Below are positions 3,872 through 17,739 of a stretch of 53,719 nt of DNA, piece by piece (the first letter of the stretch is position 1; every line of letters begins with the position of its first letter). A program made the position numbers and the translations under genes. The DNA comes from Candidatus Agathobaculum merdipullorum (GTDB lineage Bacteria; Bacillota; Clostridia; Oscillospirales; Butyricicoccaceae). Location: contig DXDZ01000055.1 of NCBI GenBank assembly GCA_019115185.1, forward strand, positions 1 to 53,719, in the 5' to 3' direction. The notes below the pieces were generated by a model. It had not been told where the DNA came from, made no database searches, and saw only the letters and a list, made by a program, of their open reading frames with translations.

Positions 3872-4888
3872 TTAAATTTCGCGGCCGACCGCCTGCGCTA
3901 CCGCGCGCAGGTTGTGCATGGTCTCGTGGAAGGAATAATAGGTCAGCGACTGCGCGCCGTCCGACAGCGCGTGCGCGGGGTCGTTGTGGACCTCGATCAT
4001 CAGGCCGTCCGCGCCCGCAGCAACCGCTGCCTTGGCCAGCGGCTCAACCATCCAGTAAATACCGCCTGCGTGGGACGGGTCAACAACAACCGGCAGATGG
4101 CTCATGCGCTTGAGCACCGGTACTGCCGAGATATCCAGCGTGTTGCGGGTGTATTTTTCATAGGTGCGGATGCCACGCTCGCACAGGATGACCTGTTCGT
4201 TGCCGCCCGCCATGATGTACTCGGCGCTCATCAGGAATTCTTCCATCGTGTTGGCAAAGCCGCGCTTGAGCAGGATCGGCTTGTCGGTCTGACCCAGCTC
4301 CTTGAGCAGCTCGAAGTTCTGCATGTTGCGCGCGCCGACCTGGAAGCAGTCGCACTTGTCCATGAACAGGTCGATGTGCGCAGGGTTGGTGATCTCGGTG
4401 ACGACCGGCAGACCGGTTTCCACATGCGCCTTGTGCAGCAGCTCGAGGCCCTCCGCCTTAAGACCCTGGAAGGAGTACGGGGAGGAACGCGGCTTCCACG
4501 CGCCGCCGCGCAGCACGGTTGCGCCGTCAGCCTGTACATGTTTGGCAACGTCGATGATCTGCTCTTCGCTCTCGACCGAGCAGGGACCGGCCATCACGAC
4601 CAGCTTTTTGCCGCCGACCACAACGCCCGGCGCGATGGTCACTTCGGTGTTGTCCGGATGGAACTTGCGGTTGGCCAGCTTGAACGGCTCCTGCACCTTG
4701 AGAATGTTTTCAACCTGCGGGTCGCGAAGCAGCGCGTCCTTATCGACCGCGCCCGTGTCGCCGACCAGACCGATGACGATAGTGCCTGCGCCGTAAATCG
4801 GGTTTGCCTTGACGTTCCAGCGCTCAATGTGGCGGGAAAGCTCTTCAACATGCTCGCGGGTCGTGCCCTGTTTCATAATGATAATCAT
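3872..4888 (-). CDS. aroF: 3-deoxy-7-phosphoheptulonate (DAHP) synthase, type I-beta
   Basis: Condenses PEP and erythrose 4-phosphate to DAHP, the entry step of aromatic biosynthesis. The 338-residue product starts with an about 70-residue ferredoxin-like regulatory extension as in the Thermotoga-type enzymes, followed by the catalytic barrel with [20 protein letters not shown] and DPSHAGG. ATG 4888 is chosen because it follows AAAGGAG and begins the regulatory domain; in-frame codons further upstream lie inside the T-box terminator. First gene of the operon, so it is the gene most directly controlled by the leader. The symbol aroF is a convention; aroG/aroA names are also used for this family. 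Confidence 0.95.
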
Positions 4889-4943
4889 AGTTTTGTCTCT
4901 CCTTTGGAATGATGTGGGATTTGTTTTGTTTGTCCGGCGGAAA

Positions 4944-4988
4944 AAAGCACAAAAAAAGCCTTTCATCCACAAAGAGGGACGAAAGACA
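4944..4988 (-). terminator. T-box regulated intrinsic terminator
   Basis: On the minus strand CTTTCGTCC pairs with GGATGAAAG (9 bp, one G-U) around a loop of about 9 nt, followed by GCTTTTTTT. It competes with the antiterminator formed by the T-box core just upstream and ends about 60 nt before the DAHP synthase start. Confidence 0.85.
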
Positions 4989-5220
4989 AACGGTTCCGCG
5001 GTACCACCCACATTCGGCATAACGCTATGCCGCACTTTTTTCGGATACGAAAATATCCTATCCCTATAACGGAGGAAATCCGTCGGCGCCTACTGGAAAC
5101 TGCTTTTCAGCGCCGCAGCTCAAGAGGGAACTTCATTGTGCCGGCGCCTGCGTCCGTTTCCAGTCATGCCGGACACTCCCTGAAAGCCGCACTTGGAACA
5201 ACTACTTTCCTCTGTCATCG
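4946..5220 (-). promoter_or_regulatory. T-box riboswitch leader of the aro operon
   Basis: Reads uncharged tRNA and controls read-through into the aro genes. Read on the minus strand, the T-box core GGGTGGTACCGCGG lies at 5009-4996. Upstream come stem I elements: GTAG near 5205, a GGGAGTG that resembles the AGAGAG motif, and a helix in which CCGGC (about 5172) pairs with GCCGG (about 5143). A GGCATA/TATGCC hairpin lies around 5030-5016. The candidate specifier TTC (Phe) is at 5130-5128, in the context AATGAAG-TTC-CCTCTTGAG; the reading frame of the specifier is not fully certain. The switch terminator follows directly. Confidence 0.9.
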
Positions 5221-5241
5221 CTTTGTGCAATATTTATACCT

Positions 5242-5327: not shown

Positions 5328-5338
5328 AGGGACAGGTG

Positions 5339-6250
5339 ATGCAAATGGAAGGAAAACAGGACCGGGCCTATATGCAGGCGATCGCCTGTCTGCCGCCGCC
5401 GCGCGCGGCAGAGCTGGCGCTCTTGGACGGGCAGCAGCAAATCGAGGAAGTGCGCCTGCGGGTCGGATGGCCGCCCTCTGTGCGCACGGCATCGGGCGAA
5501 CAGCAAACCGTGTTTGCGCCGGTCACGGCGCAGGAGTTGCGCGAAACGCTCAGCCGGGCGACACGGTATTCAGTACATAGCTATGCGGAAAGCCTGCGGC
5601 ACGGGTTCGTGACGCTCGGCGGGGGGCATCGGCTTGGGCTTTGCGGCACGGTGGCCGAGGAAAGCGGACAGGTGATCGGCGTGCGCGGGCTGTCGTCGGT
5701 CAATCTGCGCGTGGCACGGCAGATCACTGAGGTGGACGAGGTCATCCGGCCGTGGATCGGTGCGGGCGCGATGCAGAGTGTCCTTGTGCTGTCGCCGCCC
5801 GGCTTCGGCAAGACGACGCTGCTGCGCGAATGGGTGCGGCTGGTGTCGGAGGCGGGGCATCCGGTCGCGGTAGCGGACGAGCGCGGAGAGATCGCCGCCT
5901 TGCTGGACGGCGCACCGCAGTTTGCGCTCGGCAGATGCACGGATGTGCTGGAAAACTGCGCAAAAAAACAGGCGGCGTTTATGCTGCTCAAGACCATGTC
6001 GCCCGAACTGATCGCTTTTGACGAAATCACCGCGCCAGAGGATGTGGAGGCGGTTTCGCTGTGCGCCCACTGCGGCACGGCGGTACTGGCCAGCGCGCAT
6101 GCGGCGGATGTGGACGATCTGTGCCGAAGGCCGCTGTACCGCGCGCTGCTGGAGCTGCATGTGTTCGAGCGGGCGGTGGTCATCACACGGGAAAACGGAA
6201 AACGGTGTTACCGGATACAGGAATTGGAGGGAAAACCATGCTCAAACTGA
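5339..6250 (+). CDS. spoIIIAA: Stage III sporulation protein AA (ATPase)
   Basis: Cytosolic mother-cell ATPase thought to power the SpoIIIA-SpoIIQ feeding-tube complex that links mother cell and forespore after engulfment. The product of about 303 residues has a Walker A motif SPPGFGKT around residues 152-159 and a Walker B ELIAFDEI further on, typical of secretion/pilus-type ATPases. The start is ambiguous between GTG 5336, ATG 5339 and ATG 5345; 5339 has an AGGG about 7 nt upstream, while 5345 has AGGTGAT. The last codons overlap the spoIIIAB start, pointing to coupled translation. First gene of a complete eight-gene operon. Confidence 0.94.
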   Translation: MQMEGKQDRAYMQAIACLPPPRAAELALLDGQQQIEEVRLRVGWPPSVRTASGEQQTVFAPVTAQELRETLSRATRYSVHSYAESLRHGFVTLGGGHRLGLCGTVAEESGQVIGVRGLSSVNLRVARQITEVDEVIRPWIGAGAMQSVLVLSPPGFGKTTLLREWVRLVSEAGHPVAVADERGEIAALLDGAPQFALGRCTDVLENCAKKQAAFMLLKTMSPELIAFDEITAPEDVEAVSLCAHCGTAVLASAHAADVDDLCRRPLYRALLELHVFERAVVITRENGKRCYRIQELEGKPCSN

Positions 6251-6756
6251 TGGGATCGGTGATGATCTTCGGCGCGTGTGCTGCGCTTGGCCTGTCCGCG
6301 CGGCAGGGATTGCGGCGGCGCGTGGCCGCAGCGGATGCAATGCTGCTTGCGTTGCAGCTGATGAGCGGCGAAATCTCCGGCCGCCGCACGCCCGTACCTG
6401 AAATCGTCGGCCAGCTGGCCGAAAGCGAAAACGCGGCCATCCGCACGCTCTTTGGCCATCTGCGGCGGCGCTTGCGCGAGGAGAACGGGCTGTCGTTCGG
6501 GTATTTGTGGCGCGCGTCCCTGCGGGATTGCCGGGATCAGATCGGACTGGGGCAGCCGGAGTGCGAGATCCTGTCCGAAGCGGCGGCGTGGCTCGGCCGG
6601 TATGACGCTGCCGAGCAGGTCGCGGGGCTCGAGCAGATCGCGCGGCGGCTGGCAGCGGCGCGCGACACGGCGGCAGGGGAACTGCAAAACAAGGGCAATC
6701 TGTACCGCACCTGCGGCATTGCGCTGGGCATTCTGGTGGTGCTGGTGCTGATCTGA
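6238..6756 (+). CDS. spoIIIAB: Stage III sporulation protein AB
   Basis: A GspF-like membrane component of the SpoIIIA channel. At 172 residues it has the usual length, one hydrophobic segment at each end (MLKLMGSVMIFGACAALGL at the N-terminus, ALGILVVLVLI at the C-terminus) and an arginine-rich helical middle. ATG 6238 overlaps the end of spoIIIAA by 13 nt and has GGAGGG 5 nt upstream. Assigned by topology, length and operon order as well as sequence flavour. Confidence 0.92.
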   Translation: MLKLMGSVMIFGACAALGLSARQGLRRRVAAADAMLLALQLMSGEISGRRTPVPEIVGQLAESENAAIRTLFGHLRRRLREENGLSFGYLWRASLRDCRDQIGLGQPECEILSEAAAWLGRYDAAEQVAGLEQIARRLAAARDTAAGELQNKGNLYRTCGIALGILVVLVLI

Positions 6757-6770
6757 GGACGGAGGAACAT

Positions 6771-6965
6771 ATGGACGTTGATCTGATTTTCCGCATTGCG
6801 GCGGTCGGTATCCTGGTAGCGGTGCTCGGTCAGCTGCTGACGCGGTCGGGACGGGAGGAACAGGCGCTGATGACCACGCTGGCGGGGCTGATCGTCGTGC
6901 TGATGCTGATTGTGCAGGAGATCAGCCAGCTGTTTACGATGATGAAAAGCGTGTTCGGGTTTTGA
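6771..6965 (+). CDS. spoIIIAC: Stage III sporulation protein AC
   Basis: A 64-residue membrane protein with two transmembrane segments (about 6-23 and 33-52) and a short charged loop (SGREEQ) between them, the standard form of SpoIIIAC. ATG 6771 follows ACGGAGGAAC. Role: small integral membrane part of the SpoIIIA complex in the mother-cell side of the forespore envelope. Its stop overlaps the start of spoIIIAD. Confidence 0.92.
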   Translation: MDVDLIFRIAAVGILVAVLGQLLTRSGREEQALMTTLAGLIVVLMLIVQEISQLFTMMKSVFGF

Positions 6966-7351
6966 ACGGTCTGATTGCAGCCTGCGGGTTGGTGCTGCTG
7001 GTTCTGGTGCTGTCGATGACGCTCAAAAAGGATGTGCCTGCGATTGCGTTCCTGCTGACGCTGACGGCGGGTGTGCTCATCCTGCTGCGGGCCTTCGATC
7101 TCGTGGGTGGTACGATGCAGCGGTTTTCCGGTCTGCTTGCGCAGGGTGGCATCACGCAGAGCTTGTATCTGCCGGTGCTTAAAACGGTCGGCGTGGCGGT
7201 CGTAGTGCGCATCATAAGCGCGCTTTGCCGGGACAGCGGGCAGTCCGCACTCGCGGTAAAGCTGGAGATCGTGGGCGCGGTATTGGCGCTTTCCATGTGT
7301 CTGCCGCTGCTCGAGCAAGTGCTTGAGCTGGTGGCGGACTGGACGATATGA
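6962..7351 (+). CDS. spoIIIAD: Stage III sporulation protein AD
   Basis: A 129-residue, highly hydrophobic protein with about four membrane segments, related in form to SpoIIIAC and part of the same channel. Translation appears to start at TTG 6962, which overlaps the spoIIIAC stop (TGA 6963-6965); this rare start plus overlap implies strong coupling to spoIIIAC. Sequence features such as DVPAIAFLLTL and the terminal LPLLEQVLELV match the family. Confidence 0.9.
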   Translation: MNGLIAACGLVLLVLVLSMTLKKDVPAIAFLLTLTAGVLILLRAFDLVGGTMQRFSGLLAQGGITQSLYLPVLKTVGVAVVVRIISALCRDSGQSALAVKLEIVGAVLALSMCLPLLEQVLELVADWTI

Positions 7352-7364
7352 AAGGGAACGGACG

Positions 7365-8456
7365 ATGAAAAAGGTGTTTGCCGTGCTGCTGGTGCTGCTG
7401 GCATGCATGACCGCAGCGGCTGCGGCGGGAGAAGAGGCCGCGCAGGGGGACACGCTGCTCGGCGCGGTGTCGGGGGAGCAGCGCGCGTATCTGGACGGCA
7501 TTGACCCGGAAACGGCGGACGAGCTGGGGGCTTCGTTTGCCCGTCTGCTGGAAAATACAGCCGAGGACAGCCGCAGCGCGCTCAAAAGCGCGCTGGGCGG
7601 ACTGGTGCGGGTGGCGGTCGTGGTGGTGCTAACTGCCGCCGGGCGCGGGTTTTCCGCAGCGGCGGGCGGCGCGGCCGATGCGTGGATCGACATGGCGGGC
7701 GCGCTGGGCTGTGCGGCGGTGCTGCTCAAGGATTTTACCGGTGTGCTGGCGCTGTGCCGCGAAACCCTGTCCCAAATCAGCGTGTTTTCCGGCACGTTGC
7801 AGCCGGTGCTGGCGACCGTGCTTTCCGCGGGCGGGAATGCCGCGACCGCGACCGCCTTGCAGGTGGCGACGATGGTGGTGTTCGATCTGGTGATCCGGTT
7901 GGTGAATACGCTGCTGGTGCCTGCAGCGTGCGCATATCTCGCGGTGGTGGCGGTGGACGCGGCGACCGGCAATGGCATGCTGCACGGCATCGCGGACGGC
8001 ATCAAGGGGCTGACCTCAGGTGCCCTCAAGCTGATTCTGACCGTGTTCACCGCCTATCTGACCATTGCGGGCGGAGTATCGGGCAGCGTGGACCGCATGG
8101 CGCTCAAAACGGCCAAATTTGCGGTTTCGGGCGCGGTGCCGGTAGTCGGCGGCGTGATTTCGGATGCGACCGAGACCGTGCTTTCCGGTGCGGCGCTGCT
8201 GCGCAGTTCGATCGGCGTGTTCGGCATGCTGTGCGTGACGGCGATCTGCCTGATTCCGTTTTTGCGCGTGGGTATGAGCTATCTGTGCTATAAGGCGGGG
8301 GCAGCGGTGCTTTCACCGCTGTGTTCGAGCAGTCTGCGGCAGATGCTGGAAGGCATCAGCACGGGGTTCGGCCTGCTGCTCGGCATGCTGAGCACCTGCT
8401 GTCTGATTCTGTATTTGGAGCTGGTTTATGTGGTTGCGATGGTGAAGCCGATATGA
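7365..8456 (+). CDS. spoIIIAE: Stage III sporulation protein AE
   Basis: A multi-spanning membrane protein of the SpoIIIA complex, 363 residues. It begins with a signal peptide (KKVFAVLLVLLACMTAAAAA), has an extracytoplasmic acidic segment to about residue 70, then several hydrophobic helices with glycine-rich turns (SGAVPVVGGVISDATE). ATG 7365 was preferred over the in-frame GTG at 7323 because it starts the signal peptide and follows AAGGGAACGG. Its stop forms an ATGA overlap with spoIIIAF. Confidence 0.93.
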   Translation: MKKVFAVLLVLLACMTAAAAAGEEAAQGDTLLGAVSGEQRAYLDGIDPETADELGASFARLLENTAEDSRSALKSALGGLVRVAVVVVLTAAGRGFSAAAGGAADAWIDMAGALGCAAVLLKDFTGVLALCRETLSQISVFSGTLQPVLATVLSAGGNAATATALQVATMVVFDLVIRLVNTLLVPAACAYLAVVAVDAATGNGMLHGIADGIKGLTSGALKLILTVFTAYLTIAGGVSGSVDRMALKTAKFAVSGAVPVVGGVISDATETVLSGAALLRSSIGVFGMLCVTAICLIPFLRVGMSYLCYKAGAAVLSPLCSSSLRQMLEGISTGFGLLLGMLSTCCLILYLELVYVVAMVKPI

Positions 8457-8935
8457 GTGAACTGTTTCATACCATTCTGCTGCGCGTGACGCTGGCGGGC
8501 GTTGCGTCTGCGGTGGCGCTGCGCGTGGTTGAAGGCGGCGCGCTGCGCGAGATCGTCAAACTGGCGGCAGGGCTATTGATGCTGCTGGCACTGTTGCAGC
8601 CGCTGGCAGGCTTGCGCCTGACCGGCTGGGAAGGCATGCGGGATGGTGCGCTTGCGGGCGTAGACGTGGACGTGATACAGGAGCAAAACGCGCAGACGAC
8701 GATGAGCACGATTGCGGCCAGCATTGCGGATGCGCTCGAGAGCAGTGCGCGGGCGAAGGGATTTGACTGCACGATCCATGTGACGATGGAAAACGACGAA
8801 AACGGCATTTTACAGGTCGGGCAAGTGACTGTGTATTACCAAAGCACGGATGCGGCGCGGCTGGATGAGCTGAAAACGCTGGTGACCGAGGGCAGCGGCG
8901 TGGATGCGGACAGACAGGAGTGGGTGGCACAATGA
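8453..8935 (+). CDS. spoIIIAF: Stage III sporulation protein AF
   Basis: A 160-residue protein with two N-terminal membrane helices (about 8-26 and 33-52) and a soluble ring-building-like domain facing the intermembrane space (TIHVTMENDENGILQVGQV). In the SpoIIIA family this domain is thought to form rings like SpoIIIAG and AH. Start ATG 8453 lies in an ATGA overlap with spoIIIAE, and the stop overlaps the spoIIIAG start. Confidence 0.9.
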   Translation: MSELFHTILLRVTLAGVASAVALRVVEGGALREIVKLAAGLLMLLALLQPLAGLRLTGWEGMRDGALAGVDVDVIQEQNAQTTMSTIAASIADALESSARAKGFDCTIHVTMENDENGILQVGQVTVYYQSTDAARLDELKTLVTEGSGVDADRQEWVAQ

Positions 8936-9480
8936 AGGAACAATGGAAGGTGTGGCTGCGCGCGGCGCAGCAAAGGGTTGTGCCGCTGGCGGTCAAATAC
9001 CGCGCGGTGCTGATCGTGCTGCTGGCAGGTGTGCTGCTGCTGGCGTCGGGCGGACGCGGCGCAAAAACCGACACGGCCAGCGCGGCGGAAACCGAGGCGC
9101 AGCCTTCGTCGTTTGATCTTGCCGCGTTTGAGCAGACGCTGTGTGATAAGCTGGCGGCGGTGGACGGCGTGGGACGGGTTGAGCTGATGCTGTCGCTCGA
9201 GCAGAGCGGCGAGGCGGTTTACGCGGTCAACACCCGCCAGACGACCGGGATGGACAGCAGCGAGAGTTTTGAAAGCGATCTGACCATTCTCAGCGATGGC
9301 AGTTATGGGGAAAAGCCCGTCACGGTCAAAAATCTGCTGCCGACGTTTCGCGGCGCGGTCGTTTTGTGCGACGGTGCGGACAATGCGCAGGTGCGTCTGG
9401 CGGTGACGCAGGCGGTCAGCACGGTATGTGGGATCGGCGCGGACAAAGTTACGGTTCTGAAAATGTCCGATGCCTCATAA
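8932..9480 (+). CDS. spoIIIAG: Stage III sporulation protein AG
   Basis: Forms a large ring in the outer forespore membrane space in Bacillus, resembling secretion-system basal-body rings. The 182-residue product has one membrane anchor (about 20-38, VLIVLLAGVLLLASGG), a low-complexity linker, then the ring-building domain with VDGVGRVELMLSLE and a terminal VSTVCGIGADKVTVLKM. ATG 8932 overlaps the spoIIIAF stop; an in-frame ATG lies 12 nt earlier and is less well placed. Confidence 0.92.
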   Translation: MKEQWKVWLRAAQQRVVPLAVKYRAVLIVLLAGVLLLASGGRGAKTDTASAAETEAQPSSFDLAAFEQTLCDKLAAVDGVGRVELMLSLEQSGEAVYAVNTRQTTGMDSSESFESDLTILSDGSYGEKPVTVKNLLPTFRGAVVLCDGADNAQVRLAVTQAVSTVCGIGADKVTVLKMSDAS

Positions 9481-9511
9481 AACATAGTAACCAAATACAG
9501 GAGGGCGAGCA

Positions 9512-10036
9512 GTGATGAAAAAAATCAAGAAACGCGGCGCGGTATACGGTGTGATCGCGCTGTTGCTTTGTGCGGCAGTTTACTTAAACTGGAGCTATGT
9601 CGATGCGCCGGATGAGCTGCTGGTGGCTGGGCAGACCGACGCGGATGCGGCGGGGACGGATACTGCGGCGCAAAGCGAAGGAGAGGACTATTTTGCAACT
9701 TCCCGTCTGACACGTGAGCAGGCGCGGGATGAAGCGGTCAGCACGCTGCGCGAGCTGAGCGAGAGCGAGGACGCAGATCAGGCAGCCAAGGACGAGGCGG
9801 CCGCGCAGATCTCCGCGCTGGCGGATGATTCGGTTGCTGAGGCGAACATCGAAAGCCTGATCCGCGCTAAGGGCTATGCGGATGCGGTCGTGATGATCGG
9901 TGACAGCGGCGTGAACGTCGTGGTCGCGCCGCCGGACGGCGGCTTGCAGGCGACCGATGTGACGGTTATCAAGGATATCGTGGTCAGTGAGACCGGCATG
10001 ACCGCGGGCCAGGTCAAGATCGTGGAAGCGGAGTAA
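9512..10036 (+). CDS. spoIIIAH: Stage III sporulation protein AH
   Basis: Mother-cell partner of forespore SpoIIQ; its extracellular domain builds the channel ring. The protein of 173-174 residues has one N-terminal membrane segment (GVIALLLCAAVYLNWSYV), the YFATSRLTREQARDEAV segment typical of the family, an acidic linker and a ring-building domain ending DIVVSETGMTAGQVKIVE. GTG 9512 or ATG 9515 can start it; both follow AGGAGG. Last gene of the operon; a short GC-rich repeat GCGC-GCA-GCGC followed by TATTTTTG at 10038-10058 could be a weak terminator. Confidence 0.93.
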   Translation: MMKKIKKRGAVYGVIALLLCAAVYLNWSYVDAPDELLVAGQTDADAAGTDTAAQSEGEDYFATSRLTREQARDEAVSTLRELSESEDADQAAKDEAAAQISALADDSVAEANIESLIRAKGYADAVVMIGDSGVNVVVAPPDGGLQATDVTVIKDIVVSETGMTAGQVKIVEAE

Positions 10037-13387: not shown

Positions 13388-13604
13388 AAGCCAGATGGAG
13401 CGGCTCGAGGAAATCGTCCGCCTGCTGGAAAAGGGCGAAGCGCCGCTCGGCGACAGCATCAAGCTGTTCGAGGAAGGCACCAAGCTGTCCGCGGCGCTGG
13501 GCAAAATGCTGGATAAGGCCGAGCAGAAGGTAACAGTCATGCAGGAAAACATGCAGGGCGAGTTGACTGAGCAGCCGTTTGATGCGGAGGAGGCGGGCAA
13601 ATGA
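13368..13604 (+). CDS. xseB: Exodeoxyribonuclease VII small subunit
   Basis: Small helical partner of XseA, 78 residues, of which many copies bind the coiled-coil of each large subunit. The family pattern is clear: TFESQMERLEEIVRLLEKGE followed by PLGDSIKLFEEGTKL. The ATG at 13368 has GAGGAGG-like sequence upstream within xseA. Its end overlaps the ispA start by 4 nt. Confidence 0.96.
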   Translation: MAEKTFESQMERLEEIVRLLEKGEAPLGDSIKLFEEGTKLSAALGKMLDKAEQKVTVMQENMQGELTEQPFDAEEAGK

Positions 13605-14485
13605 CGTTTGCAGAGCAGCTTTCGGCAGATCTCGCGGTCATCGAGCCTGCGCTTGAGAAATACCTGTCCCGCGAGACCGGGGAAGGGTACGACCGCATTT
13701 TTGAAGCGGCAAAATATTCGGCGATGGCGGGCGGGAAGCGCCTGCGTCCGGTGATCGTTTTGGAATTCTGCCGCCTGTGCGGCGGGGATGTACAAAAGGC
13801 GCTGCCGTTCGCGTGCGCGCTTGAGATGATTCACACCTATTCGCTCATCCACGACGATCTGCCGTGCATGGACAACGACGATCTGCGCCGCGGCCGTCCG
13901 ACCTGCCACAAGGCGTTTGACGAGGCGACGGCGGTGCTCGCGGGCGACGGACTGCTGACTGCGGCGTTTGAGACTGCGGCGGCGGCCGAAGGCGTATCTG
14001 CGGAGACTGCCCTTGCCTGCATCCGCATCTTAGGACAGGCCGCGGGCATGAACGGCATGATCGGCGGGCAGGTGCTCGATATGGGCGCGGAACACCGCAA
14101 GATTTCGCTGGACGAGCTGCGCCTGCTGCAAAGCCTCAAGACTGGCTGTCTGTTGCGCGCGGCGTGCGAACTGGGCTGCACGGTCGCGGGCAAGACCGAC
14201 GCGCACACGCTTGACATGGCGCGCACCTACGGGGACAAGCTCGGCCTTGCGTTCCAGATCCGGGACGATATGCTGGATATTGATGGCGATACCGCGACGC
14301 TCGGCAAGACGGTCGGTAAGGACGAAAAGAGCGAAAAATCCACCTTCCCGTCGCTGCTGGGCATGGAGGAGTGCCGCCGTCTGGTGGCAAGCCTGACCGA
14401 CGAGGCCGTGCAGGCGGTATCCGGTCAGCCGGAGAGCGCATTTCTGGTGGAATTGGCGCGCAGTTTGACCAATCGCACGAATTAA
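13601..14485 (+). CDS. ispA: Polyprenyl (farnesyl/geranyl) diphosphate synthase
   Basis: Chain-elongating prenyltransferase that builds C10-C20 isoprenoid diphosphates. The 294-residue product has the first aspartate-rich motif DDLPCMDNDDLRRGRPT (about 84-100), the lysine of GGKRLRP, and the second motif QIRDDMLDIDGD (about 222-233). Start ATG 13601 overlaps the xseB stop (ATGA). It belongs to the same pathway as dxs, which lies 1.4 kb downstream with only the non-coding RNA and oapA between them. Confidence 0.95.
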   Translation: MTFAEQLSADLAVIEPALEKYLSRETGEGYDRIFEAAKYSAMAGGKRLRPVIVLEFCRLCGGDVQKALPFACALEMIHTYSLIHDDLPCMDNDDLRRGRPTCHKAFDEATAVLAGDGLLTAAFETAAAAEGVSAETALACIRILGQAAGMNGMIGGQVLDMGAEHRKISLDELRLLQSLKTGCLLRAACELGCTVAGKTDAHTLDMARTYGDKLGLAFQIRDDMLDIDGDTATLGKTVGKDEKSEKSTFPSLLGMEECRRLVASLTDEAVQAVSGQPESAFLVELARSLTNRTN

Positions 14486-14508: not shown

Positions 14509-14537
14509 TTGAATCCGACGGATTCATGTGATAGAAT
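14509..14537 (+). promoter_or_regulatory. Candidate promoter of the OLE RNA
   Basis: TTGAAT at 14509-14514, 17-nt spacer, TAGAAT at 14532-14537. A start 7-8 nt downstream would fall at 14544-14545, the first base of the helix that closes the RNA. A small inverted repeat, GAATCC-GAC-GGATTC, at 14511-14525 overlaps the -35 side. Confidence 0.65.
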
Positions 14538-14544
14538 AAAAAAT

Positions 14545-15199
14545 AAGTGACGTAGTATCCTAGTCAGCGCATACGATTCCCAGGACGGGCCTAAAAATCC
14601 GTAGAAGGGCATATCGATGAAGTCTCTGGTGTTTGCTTCTTACGCCCAGTTTGGGGTGGATGCTGGAGGTTAAGGCTTGCGGGCGCGCTTCAATGGCATG
14701 AAGTACCGACCCTCTCGCCGTGGAGACCTGTATGCGTGGGGCACCTATAGCATCGTTTCGATTGATGGATGCCTTACGGTACAGGATGAAACCTGTATTG
14801 CGGTGCGGCGGGAACTGCGCGGCATACGCCGGCCATTGCGGTCGGAAGCCCGCGCGGCGCCCAAAACGCTGTGTGCAGTGTAGCCTGCCTTGCGTGGCCA
14901 TGGTGGATATCGTATCCGCCTGCGGTTTCCCGGCCAGGAACCCGCGGGAATTGACGGTTGAAACCATGTCTGCAAAAGAGGCTAAGAATCGTGTTGCCTG
15001 TAGTGGAAATCACCTAGGCTATTCAGCAATGAGGCAGGCAGAGGATTGCAGTGCGGACTCAGTGGCAATTCGGTCCCGGTGATGGTAACATCCCGGCACG
15101 GACTATAATGGGAAACCCCCACGACGGCGACGCGTGGCAGTCCGCGGGGAAAGCCAACCGAACCTCAAGCCGCAAGATTAACTCGGCCTGCCGTCACTT
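14545..15199 (+). ncRNA. ole: OLE (Ornate Large Extremophilic) RNA, about 655 nt
   Basis: A long, G+C-rich region between ispA and the oapA gene without a plausible protein in any frame. The ends match: AAGTGACG at 14545-14552 is the exact reverse complement of CGTCACTT at 15192-15199, so the transcript can close on itself. Internal structure is visible, for example a GATG-GTAA-CATC hairpin with a GNRA loop at 15081-15092, GGACT (15100-15104) pairing with AGTCC (15139-15143) around a CCACG/CGTGG stem, and a GGAC-rich 3' half. OLE RNA is known as a membrane-bound ribonucleoprotein RNA that sits between isoprenoid genes ispA and dxs and next to oapA; this is precisely that arrangement. In Bacillus halodurans it is linked to cold, short-chain alcohol and magnesium stress. 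I identify it from context, size and terminal pairing; I could not run a covariance search. Confidence 0.9.
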
Positions 15200-15214
15200 C
15201 TATTGAAAGGAAAC

Positions 15215-15230
15215 AACCGAAAGGTTTTTT
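15215..15230 (+). terminator. Weak hairpin with T-run after the OLE RNA
   Basis: AACC-GAAA-GGTT followed by TTTT. Only four base pairs, closed by a GNRA loop. It could end part of the OLE transcripts or mark a processing boundary; read-through into oapA is likely. Confidence 0.35.
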
Positions 15231-15248: not shown

Positions 15249-15839
15249 TTGGAAGCATCCGATAAACCGAGAAAAAAGAACCAGCCGCCGCAAAAGCCGC
15301 GGCTGATCAACACCAAATGGGTGGCAACCATCATGCCGATCAGCTTTGTGCTGTCGGTTGTGATGAGTTATATGTCGAATGAAGCGCTCAATAGCGCGGG
15401 CACGATTTTGTCCTTTGTGGTGCTGTTTTTCTTCATCGCATTGGGCATAGTATTTGATATGATCGGCATTGCCGCCGCCTCCGCGACCGAGAAGGAGTTC
15501 CACTCCATGGCGGCGCACCGCGTGCGCGGCGCAAAGGAAGCGGTGTGGATGACCCGCAACGCGGAAAAGGTGTCGAGCATCTGCAATGATGTGGTCGGTG
15601 ATATCTGCGGCATCATTTCCGGTGCAACAGGCGCGTTGATCGTCACCAACATCACGGTCGGGCTGAGCGGCGTGCAGGTGGTGCTGGTGTCGCTTTTGGT
15701 GACCGGCCTGATCTCCGCTATGACCATCGGCGGCAAGGCGGCTGGTAAAGGCGTGGCGATCGCGTTCAGCAGCCGGGTGCTGGCCATGTGTGGACGGGTG
15801 TTGTCCGTTCTGCCGTTTTCGCTGGACAGCAAGAAATAG
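15249..15839 (+). CDS. oapA: OLE-associated protein A (OapA), membrane protein
   Basis: Binds OLE RNA and holds it at the membrane. The 196-residue protein has a basic N-terminus rich in Lys/Arg/Pro (about 1-22), four hydrophobic segments (about 26-45, 52-75, 118-140 and 146-165) and a conserved central stretch, FDMIGIAAASATEKEFHSMA then RNAEKVSSICNDVVGDICG, that resembles the DUF21/CNNM magnesium-transporter core. The start is TTG 15249 with AAGGAG 7 nt upstream; no ATG fits. It lies 50 nt behind the OLE RNA and 28 nt before dxs. The identity rests on position and topology and matches published descriptions of OapA. Confidence 0.9.
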   Translation: MEASDKPRKKNQPPQKPRLINTKWVATIMPISFVLSVVMSYMSNEALNSAGTILSFVVLFFFIALGIVFDMIGIAAASATEKEFHSMAAHRVRGAKEAVWMTRNAEKVSSICNDVVGDICGIISGATGALIVTNITVGLSGVQVVLVSLLVTGLISAMTIGGKAAGKGVAIAFSSRVLAMCGRVLSVLPFSLDSKK

Positions 15840-15867: not shown

Positions 15868-17739
15868 ATGAAGAGATACGGGATTTTGGACAATATCACA
15901 AGCCCCGCGGATCTGCGCGGATTATCGTACGACTCCTTAGGGGTGTTGTGCGCTTCGCTGCGCGAGTTTATCGTCGATTCAGTTTCGCATACAGGCGGCC
16001 ATCTGGCTTCCAATCTGGGTGTTGTGGAGTTGGCTGTCGCGCTCGAGCGGGAGTTTGATTCCTCGCGCGACCGCATCATCTATGATGTGGGCCACCAGAG
16101 CTATGTCCATAAAATTTTAACCGGCCGCCGTGACCGCTTTGATACATTGCGACAGTACGGCGGTCTTTCCGGTTTCATGAAGCCGGAGGAAAGCATCACC
16201 GACCCCTGCGTGACCGGACATGCTTCGGATTCGGTTTCGGTGGCGCTGGGTATGGCGCACGCGCGCACACTCAAAAACCAGAAATACCATGTGATTGCCG
16301 TCATTGGCGACGGCGCGCTGACCGGCGGCATGGCATATGAGGCACTCAGCAATGCGGGCACGTCAGGCGAGCCCCTTTTGGTCGTGCTCAACGACAATAA
16401 CATGTCGATTGCAAAGAATGTCGGCGGACTGAGCCGGCATTTGTCGCGTCTGCGCGTTAGCCCACGCTATCTGCACACCAAAGCACGGGTGAAAGAGCGC
16501 TTGGCGCGTATTCCCGGCGGCGGTACGGTATCGCGCGGTATTTCGCGCATGAAAGCGCGCATGAAAGGGCTGCTGCTGCCGACCTCTTTGTTTGAGCAGA
16601 TGGGCTTTATCTACCTCGGCCCGGTGGACGGACATGACCTCAAAAGCGTGTGCGAGCTGCTTTCCCAGGCAAAGAAGATCAAAAAGCCGGTTTTGCTGCA
16701 TGTGATGACGCAAAAGGGGCGCGGCTATGCGCCCAGCGAGCGCGAGCCGGAAAAATATCATGGCGTTTCGCCCTTTGACCCGCTGACCGGTGCGTTCAAG
16801 GCGGCAAAGAAAGAGGACTTTTCCGCCTGCTTTGGGCGTGAACTCTGCGCCTTTGCGGAAAAGGATGCGCGTATCTGTGCCATCACGGCGGCGATGCCGT
16901 CCGGCACGGGGCTGACGCGGTTTGCCTCCCGGTTTCCCGACCGTTTTTTTGATGTCGGAATCGCAGAAGAGCATGCGGTGGCGATGGCGGCGGGCATGGC
17001 GGCGCAGGGTTTGGTGCCGGTGGTGGCAATGTATTCCACGTTCTTGCAGCGCGCGTATGACCAGATGGTGCATGATGTGGCCATTGAAGGACTACATGTG
17101 GTGTTCTGCGTGGATCGCGCCGGTATTGTGGGCGCGGACGGCGCAACGCACAACGGCGTGCTGGATGTGGCGTTTTTGCGCTCGATTCCGGGCGTGAAGA
17201 TCTTCTGTCCGTCGGACTTTGCCGAACTGCGCAGCATGATGTCGCACGCGCTCTATCATGAGAGCGGCCCGGTGGCGATCCGCTATCCCCGCGGCGGCGA
17301 AGGCGCGTTCCGGGGAGACACGACTGCGGAAACGATCGCCTGTGTGCGAGAGACGGCAGGCTGCGAGGTAACGCTGCTGACCCACGGCGCACTCGTCAAT
17401 GAAGCAATTGCCGCTGCCGATCTTTTGGAAAAAAAGGGCGTGCACGCGCAGGTATATAAAGTCAATGAGATCAGCGATGCACTGGAGGACGCTTTCCGTG
17501 AGCGGGAAGCGGCGCTGTCCGGCTGGTGCGTGGTCGTCGAGGATGTCGTAGAAAACGGCAGTCTGGGCGAATGGGTGGCCGCCCATCGTGGCGGACGAGT
17601 GGACCGGCTGAACACCGGCAACCGCTTTGTGCCGCATGGCGGCGTGAGCGACCTGTACCGCCATTGCGGCATCGATGCGGAAGGCATTGCTTCGTTTGTC
17701 ATCAAAAACCGAAAGGGAAAGGAAAACGACCTTGGCTAA
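15868..17739 (+). CDS. dxs: 1-deoxy-D-xylulose-5-phosphate synthase
   Basis: Thiamine diphosphate enzyme that condenses pyruvate and glyceraldehyde 3-phosphate, the first step of the non-mevalonate isoprenoid pathway. The 623-residue product carries the TPP-binding motif from GDGALTGGM to LNDNNMS (about 150-178), the DVGHQSYVHKILTGR segment near the N-terminus, and the catalytic glutamate in FDVGIAEEHAVAMAAG (about 367). ATG 15868 follows a weak GGTGGG. Its last codons overlap the tlyA start. Confidence 0.97.
   Translation: MKRYGILDNITSPADLRGLSYDSLGVLCASLREFIVDSVSHTGGHLASNLGVVELAVALEREFDSSRDRIIYDVGHQSYVHKILTGRRDRFDTLRQYGGLSGFMKPEESITDPCVTGHASDSVSVALGMAHARTLKNQKYHVIAVIGDGALTGGMAYEALSNAGTSGEPLLVVLNDNNMSIAKNVGGLSRHLSRLRVSPRYLHTKARVKERLARIPGGGTVSRGISRMKARMKGLLLPTSLFEQMGFIYLGPVDGHDLKSVCELLSQAKKIKKPVLLHVMTQKGRGYAPSEREPEKYHGVSPFDPLTGAFKAAKKEDFSACFGRELCAFAEKDARICAITAAMPSGTGLTRFASRFPDRFFDVGIAEEHAVAMAAGMAAQGLVPVVAMYSTFLQRAYDQMVHDVAIEGLHVVFCVDRAGIVGADGATHNGVLDVAFLRSIPGVKIFCPSDFAELRSMMSHALYHESGPVAIRYPRGGEGAFRGDTTAETIACVRETAGCEVTLLTHGALVNEAIAAADLLEKKGVHAQVYKVNEISDALEDAFREREAALSGWCVVVEDVVENGSLGEWVAAHRGGRVDRLNTGNRFVPHGGVSDLYRHCGIDAEGIASFVIKNRKGKENDLG

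Follow-up and report, generated by a model that had tools for sequence, protein, structure and literature searches.

OLE is a large, poorly understood bacterial RNA. Its roles under stress and the contacts through which it dimerises have been described in a series of reports (PMC11332333; PMC12286853; PMC12265935; PMC12054373): 2,822 OLE hits are reported from Bacillota, with the uncultured gut clades TANB77 and RF39 among the carriers (PMC11332333), the RNA-only cryo-EM structure is that of the Clostridium acetobutylicum OLE RNA (PMC12286853), and in Halalkalibacterium halodurans OLE is carried on a single polycistronic transcript (PMC12265935). The original prediction for the locus treated here held that a host of mesophilic, gut-associated appearance widens the ecology of OLE and that fermentation acids or alcohols might be the selecting stress; because gut clades are already reported in PMC11332333, gut ecology was ruled out as a new finding. 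A search of the open-licence literature found no paper on OLE RNA together with Butyricicoccus or with Agathobaculum. The OLE class, its neighbourhood and its occurrence in the gut are already known, and the additions made here are modest ones, concerning the P8 stem, signs of transcription, genomes in which the ole and oapA genes are separated, and ispA-dxs intervals from which both are missing.

The window analysed is a stretch of 53,719 nucleotides. A cmscan search of the whole window, the check that had been proposed, returned an RF01071 match at 14531-15213 on the plus strand, complete over model positions 1-616, with 453.4 bits and E=5.8e-130, the gathering score of this model being 50. 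The interval is a genuine and complete OLE RNA gene followed by oapA, a known class in a known neighbourhood, and the predicted placement holds in that ispA, OLE, a 196-codon membrane-protein gene and dxs follow one another in this order. The extent proposed earlier, 14545-15199, falls 14 nt short of the covariance match at each end, but 14545 is a sensible estimate of where the transcript starts. The match is 683 nt long against 616 model positions, which fits the class length of about 600 nt, and most of its insertions relative to the model fall in P8 and P7. A covariance search of the whole host assembly (G000; 1.70 Mb, 86 contigs, 90.48% complete) found a single OLE copy, at the same site as in the window. 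The interval had been said to hold no credible protein, and its two longest open reading frames (135 aa on the minus strand and 120 aa on the plus strand) indeed have no Pfam match at E<=0.1; a tRNA scan of the whole window found none. The region had also been called G+C-rich, which it is not in this setting: the window as a whole has a G+C fraction of 0.574 and 14545-15199 one of 0.573, a value equalled or exceeded by 141 of the 266 stretches of 655 nt in a sliding scan, so that G+C is no distinguishing mark of the OLE interval. The features surrounding the RNA are as follows.

13601..14485, plus strand: ispA, farnesyl diphosphate synthase family (NF045485, E=4.5e-99)
14509..14537, plus strand: OLE promoter-like site, TTGAAT-17 nt-TAGAAT with TG before the second hexamer, sigma-70-like
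15249..15839, plus strand: oapA, TTG start after AGGAG, 196 aa, DxxxD at D114-D118
15868..17739, plus strand: dxs (TIGR00204, E=1.6e-205)

The order ispA-ole-oapA-dxs is seen in many related loci. The closest named OapA genes, in a list of relatives that may omit records of the window's own genome, are those of Candidatus Agathobaculum merdigallinarum (83%) and an uncultured Agathobaculum, followed by Butyricicoccus, including B. pullicaecorum DSM 23266; by this one protein and by the genus and family grouping, the host looks like an Agathobaculum-like member of the Butyricicoccaceae. The predicted gut-associated clostridium agrees with these nearest named relatives, MAGs and strains of Agathobaculum and Butyricicoccus, whose gut origin is taken partly from record titles and partly from the general biology of this lineage of gut butyrate producers. 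Elsewhere in the window, a T-box leader (4972-5227, minus strand, 111.4 bits) lies before an ORF at 3872-5035 that resembles DAHP synthase by eye, and the frames after this ORF resemble aroB, aroC and pheA on inspection of their translations. Frames at about 5336-10036 on the plus strand, upstream of xseA-xseB-ispA, resemble by eye parts of the spoIIIA cluster. In the published survey, sporulation proteins correlate with OLE (PMC11332333).

The gene that follows OLE is assigned as OapA on its position, its DxxxD motif and its weak similarity to CNNM proteins. D114 and D118 are invariant in all 32 aligned OapA proteins, and among 80 named OapA loci, the best of 573 found, OLE lies upstream in 76, at 1.4 and 1.8 kb in two of them, in keeping with the partnership proposed at the outset; of the remaining four, L074 and L078 have less than 700 nt of upstream sequence available, and L076 and L102 do not show OLE. 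Viewed from the RNA, 28 of 30 OLE loci of the order have oapA downstream within the locus; the two others are L018, for which oapA sits on a different contig of G288, and L029, at a contig end, with the oapA of G124 on another contig. The predicted CNNM-like core is backed by a weak sequence similarity, with 22 of the 32 proteins matching Pfam CNNM at E<=0.01, but the window protein itself (E=0.0026, 17.9 bits) lies below the cut-off of 28.4; it also matches DUF1761 (E=0.00089, 20 bits) below the cut-off of 31, and is the only one of the aligned proteins to do so. A simple 19-residue hydropathy scan gives five peaks in four hydrophobic segments. The basic tail of the original prediction does exist as a basic stretch, but it sits mainly at the N-terminus, where residues 1-24 hold 7 K/R and 2 D/E, against 3 K/R and 1 D/E in residues 180-196. 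Neither NCBIfam (threshold 0.001) nor PHROGs (threshold 0.1) gave a match for the protein, and one PDB match at E=1 was taken as chance.

For the fold, the window OLE and 27 others from its order (28 of 30 loci, L009 and L029 being excluded) were aligned by MAFFT without structure, and the Rfam structure together with a P3 helix placed by eye was projected onto the alignment. Standard pairs form at 138 of the 156 model pairs of the window OLE, the other 18 being non-standard. Over the whole alignment, standard pairs fill 87.7% of cells, two-sided changes occur at 112 of 167 pairs and the covariation score is 0.444; with the partners slid, the maxima were 45.1% paired, 58 two-sided pairs and a score of 0.118, a control that somewhat favours structure because the structure comes from the family model and from the window itself. 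Shuffles gave a mean of 80.5 two-sided pairs, and none of 500 reached the observed values. Both a significant covariance match and a conserved secondary structure were thus found, and the identification as OLE RNA stands on the two together. The segments of the RNA are located as follows.

14567..14579, plus strand: P3/P3.1 5' strand, pairing with 14986-14997, placed by eye, the name P3 being mapped from PMC12265935
14584..14603, plus strand: P4 hairpin with A-rich loop, loop A63-A67 invariant in 28/28
14613..14622, plus strand: J4a/5 ATCGATGAAG, 5' part of the kink turn, nine positions ATCGATGAA invariant in 28/28
14623..14669, plus strand: P5 hairpin, from the cmscan structure line; covariation helix 3
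14674..14719, plus strand: P6 stem (helix 4), pairs 165-197 and 166-196 being G-C in 28/28
14720..14726, plus strand: J6/7 GTGGAGA, 3' part of the kink turn, GAG invariant in 28/28
14727..14785, plus strand: P7 stem-loop, from cmscan; covariation helix 6
14793..14878, plus strand: P8 stem, lengthened, with a distal 61-nt arm at 14806-14866
14887..14982, plus strand: P9 stem with GGCC kissing loop at 14932-14935 (GGCC402-405), invariant in 28/28
14986..14997, plus strand: P3/P3.1 3' strand, helix 1 of the covariation analysis
14991..15192, plus strand: 3' domain (most of domain 2), from cmscan; helices 13-21, with hairpin loops GGUAAC and GGCGAC

In P3/P3.1, which has been proposed as a bilayer-crossing helix (PMC12265935), 10 of 11 pairs show two-sided changes and 79.6% of cells are paired across the 28 sequences; pairing is weakest in the outermost pairs of this helix and in parts of P9 (helix 10, 64.1% paired). 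The sequences of two published dimer contacts, the A-rich loop of P4 and the GGCC loop of P9 (PMC12286853; PMC12265935), are kept in 28/28, at the level of sequence. The J4a/5 kink turn is bound by OapC in H. halodurans (PMC9723947), and J6/7 forms the 3' part of this kink turn in the cryo-EM model (PMC12286853). P6 is the region of the bS21 site in H. halodurans, where the pairs G151-C183 and G152-C182 were tested (PMC12054373); in our own mapping, the pairs 165-197 and 166-196 may be equated with these two, which are needed for bS21 binding. On inspection, the CCUCC mimic of P6 is missing from the window OLE, which has CCCUCUC there instead. The GGUAAC and GGCGAC loops are provisionally assigned to the P12-P13 region, again by a mapping of our own. 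With P7, P8, P9 and the 3' hairpins all present, the window OLE is classed as the full-length type, a class judged here independently of the published consensus figure.

In the window, P8 carries 61 nt in place of four RF01071 model positions. Measured between AACCTG and a point just beyond the CAG block, a pattern found in 92 of 114 loci, it is 90 nt long. After removal of repeats (L147 and L148 repeat the family loci L003 and L002), 86 distinct loci remained, in which the median P8 length is 86 nt (40-106) in 22 Butyricicoccaceae loci against 47 nt (31-65) in 64 others. For Agathobaculum, Butyricicoccus and the genera g1-g3 (n=18) the median is 87.5 nt, and 17 of the 18 reach at least 73 nt, the exception being L011, from the same genus as the window, with only 51 nt; four loci from other Butyricicoccaceae genera have a short P8 (40-53 nt). 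When 24 stems were folded as single sequences and read by eye, the added length of the window, as of most relatives with a long P8, fell in a hairpin at the distal end, beyond an A-rich internal loop. This arm is probably a tolerated peripheral expansion, which fits the published model in that neither P7 nor P8 figures as a dimer contact (PMC12265935). A lengthened P8 in most Agathobaculum and Butyricicoccus OLE RNAs would be a modest addition, the comparison being with the Rfam model and the loci collected here and not with the published consensus figure. Butyricicoccus pullicaecorum DSM 23266 (L073, 454.4 bits), a named species with OLE, offers a place to study the expanded P8.

In our view it is highly probable that OLE and oapA provide a trans-acting membrane ribonucleoprotein on which OapB, OapC and bS21 dock, with roles carried over from H. 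halodurans and from the cryo-EM structures. Beginning from what was observed (the identity of the RNA, its covarying fold, the adjoining oapA, close relatives with OapB and OapC, and a bS21 in the window's own genome) and drawing for the rest on published systems, the working model would run as follows. OLE RNA would accumulate as a stable and abundant transcript, its start near 14545 probably set by a promoter of its own, and would dimerise through the A-rich loop of P4, the P5 and P6 loops and the GGCC loop of P9. OapA, as a CNNM-related four-helix protein, would hold the RNA at the membrane, OapB, OapC and bS21 would dock on it, and the particle would adjust Mg2+ handling and growth under stress such as alcohol, cold or a poor carbon source, acting in trans and not as a leader of oapA.

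bS21 is present in all seven genomes of the genus, including that of the window. For OapB, the reference was a KOW protein of G172 encoded between map and infA (names by eye), which matches the PDB OapB structure 7k9b at E=5.1e-7; a similar protein was found in 30 of 40 genomes searched and in five of the seven of the genus. For OapC, G172 has a YbxF-type L7Ae gene between rpoC and rpsL (names by eye), whose best match is to YbxF structures (E=7e-10) and which lies under the NCBIfam cut-off (65.3 vs 113 bits); a second L7Ae match occurs at the same place in G161, G221, G231 and G259, where about 3 kb around it is present. Genome searches of the window's own bin, G000, and of G193 found no OapB match and only one L7Ae-family gene, which might suggest that the ribonucleoprotein of the window lineage works without OapB and OapC, as in TANB77 and RF39. 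However, L24 is also missing from these two genomes, as is the 3-kb stretch that bears OapC (rpoC-ybxF-rpsL-rpsG in G172, names by eye), and contig C29 of G000 ends inside an rpoA-like frame (by eye), at the border of what in G172 is the OapB-bearing operon; loss of both genes in the window's species was therefore rejected in favour of an assembly gap. Moreover, the other five genomes of the genus have both genes, and the window OLE keeps P7, P8, P9 and the 3' hairpins, which the published variants shorten or lose, so that a particle lacking both proteins is very unlikely here. The proposed look for OapB and OapC in the rest of the genome thus came back empty for the window's bin but positive for five of the seven genomes of its genus.

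Two further observations concern partner proteins. In genus g7 (G288, G183, G241) there is no OapB match, though G288 has OLE, as well as a KOW match whose size is that of L24; an OLE particle without OapB is possibly at work there, a weak indication given that the query was a single protein from another genus. G000 encodes one MpfA-type CNNM protein (420 aa), and strong MpfA-type matches number 14 in 20 OLE-positive against 10 in 7 OLE-negative family genomes, single cases overlapping widely; this trend has the same direction as the published one (PMC11332333).

A membrane ribonucleoprotein acting in trans can be set against a reading in which OLE is a cis-acting leader of oapA, such as a riboswitch or attenuator, and in which hairpins between the two genes are regulatory terminators. 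That oapA follows OLE in most loci would fit such a leader, as would the terminator-like hairpin that stands between them in 18 of 24 Butyricicoccaceae loci against 0.35 expected, and in 12 of 77 others against 1.3 (mononucleotide shuffles; the sets contain repeats, for example L026/L073 and L014/L077). The window, however, has no terminator at threshold in the OLE-oapA gap, where only a 4-pair AACC-GAAA-GGTT followed by T's occurs at 15215-15230, and published work describes a membrane ribonucleoprotein. On the upstream side, the promoter-like site predicts a transcript start at about 14544-14545, 8 nt past its end. About one consensus match is expected by chance in the 2.6-kb region scanned, so the weight of this site is comparative: the best upstream site reaches p<0.05 in 18 of 30 OLE upstream regions, the window included, and is not significant in 12, and its -10 hexamer ends 6-10 nt before the conserved GTG in 20 of 30, these statistics resting on mononucleotide shuffles and on regions related to each other. 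OLE probably starts near 14545 from its own promoter. Signs that OLE in the Butyricicoccaceae has its own promoter-like site and often a terminator before oapA, the latter not clearly in the window, are a modest addition.

Separation of the two genes in a sister genus within the Butyricicoccaceae, that of G288, bears on the same question. OLE occurs in 8 of its 12 genomes; G295, G298 and G296 have the order ispA-OLE-oapA-dxs, and in G297 the contig ends 85 nt past OLE. The sequence that follows OLE in G300 (L165) and G303 (L167), about 6.5 and 7 kb long, holds no oapA, and in G301 (L159) the 1.5 kb on either side of OLE show neither ispA nor oapA; in G288, OLE faces ispA on a 3.2-kb contig (L018, C250) and oapA is on a separate contig (L047, C214). 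In these four genomes OLE scores 458-469 bits without oapA as a neighbour in the available stretch, and this speaks against OLE acting in cis on oapA. In addition, oapA is found without OLE directly upstream in L076, L102 and G183, L078 being cut by a contig end; L076, L078 and L102 would belong to the sister genus by their 77-90% OapA identity. Only G288 is shown to have both genes apart, and misassembly is possible in single bins. Separation of ole and oapA in several genomes of this genus, one of them shown to keep both, would again be a modest addition and would give genomic support to action in trans, and we consider a leader of oapA very unlikely.

Turning to distribution, under stricter filters 91 of the 295 order genomes carry OLE, as do 20 of 27 in the family and all seven in the genus (window genome included), and the seven OLE-negative family genomes still gave no match in a laxer search. 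Four of these seven (G097, L152; G251, L153; G150, L155; G281, L156) have an ispA-dxs interval that holds neither OLE nor OapA, and genome searches found no OapA elsewhere in them, so the OLE system is dispensable in the family. G267 has neither, its ispA contig breaking off, and G241 has neither, its ispA not being found; in G183 (L046) OapA was found but OLE and ispA were not. Six of the seven OLE-negative members therefore have no OapA match, and G183, the exception, may be an apparent OapA orphan through an assembly gap, because ispA is missing from the assembly too. A degenerate OLE, sought in L046 and L152-L156 with an nhmmer profile of 30 OLE RNAs, was not found. In the ispA-dxs gap of G097 and G251 there is an ORF that, by eye, resembles a divergent PAP2-family protein. 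Within single genera, an OLE-bearing and an OLE-free genome stand side by side in the pairs G274/G097 and G294/G251. Even with those four intervals devoid of both genes and the 18 non-standard model pairs of the window, a decayed or non-functional copy that persists through its linkage with ispA and dxs is very unlikely in view of the full-length match, the intact invariant blocks, an intact 196-aa OapA, the retained promoter-like site and OLE in every genome of the genus examined.

The trans-acting membrane particle thus being preferred, the window adds a well-preserved OLE member from a gut clostridium lineage. A bolder proposal, which we put forward tentatively and regard as somewhat doubtful, is that Butyricicoccaceae OLE is a distinct lineage variant, with an expanded P8 arm as a possible docking site specific to the lineage, with promoter and terminator making it an independent unit, and with the linkage lost in one genus. 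If this were so, the RNA and its membrane anchor would be made and balanced separately. The family offers natural contrasts, in congeners with and without the ole-oapA pair and in genomes with ole and oapA apart, which may be of use for such questions.

Overall, the OLE of the window is similar to the full-length RF01071 type represented by C. acetobutylicum and H. halodurans in its full model coverage, conserved blocks, P3-P9 and 3' domain, in the oapA downstream and in the neighbouring isoprenoid genes, but it differs in its 61-nt extra P8 arm, its own promoter-like site and its length of 683 nt against 616. With OLE variants 1 and 2 of TANB77 and RF39 (PMC11332333), it shares occurrence in gut-associated Bacillota. 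However, variant 1 has shortened P7-P9 and often no P13 OapB site, and variant 2 is without P7 and P8 (PMC11332333), whereas here P7 is present and P8 is lengthened (90 nt); those clades are also largely without OapB and OapC (PMC11332333), both of which are kept by same-genus relatives of the window. Its OapA resembles known OapA in its position after ole, its four hydrophobic segments, its basic N-terminus and its DxxxD motif, and appears to differ only by sequence divergence, a comparison to which the H. halodurans OapA sequence stood outside. Finally, OapA bears a weak sequence similarity to CNNM transporters of the MpfA/CorB type in its membrane core, but it carries DxxxD and, at 196 aa, has no room for the CBS and CorC domains described for MpfA (PMC11332333).
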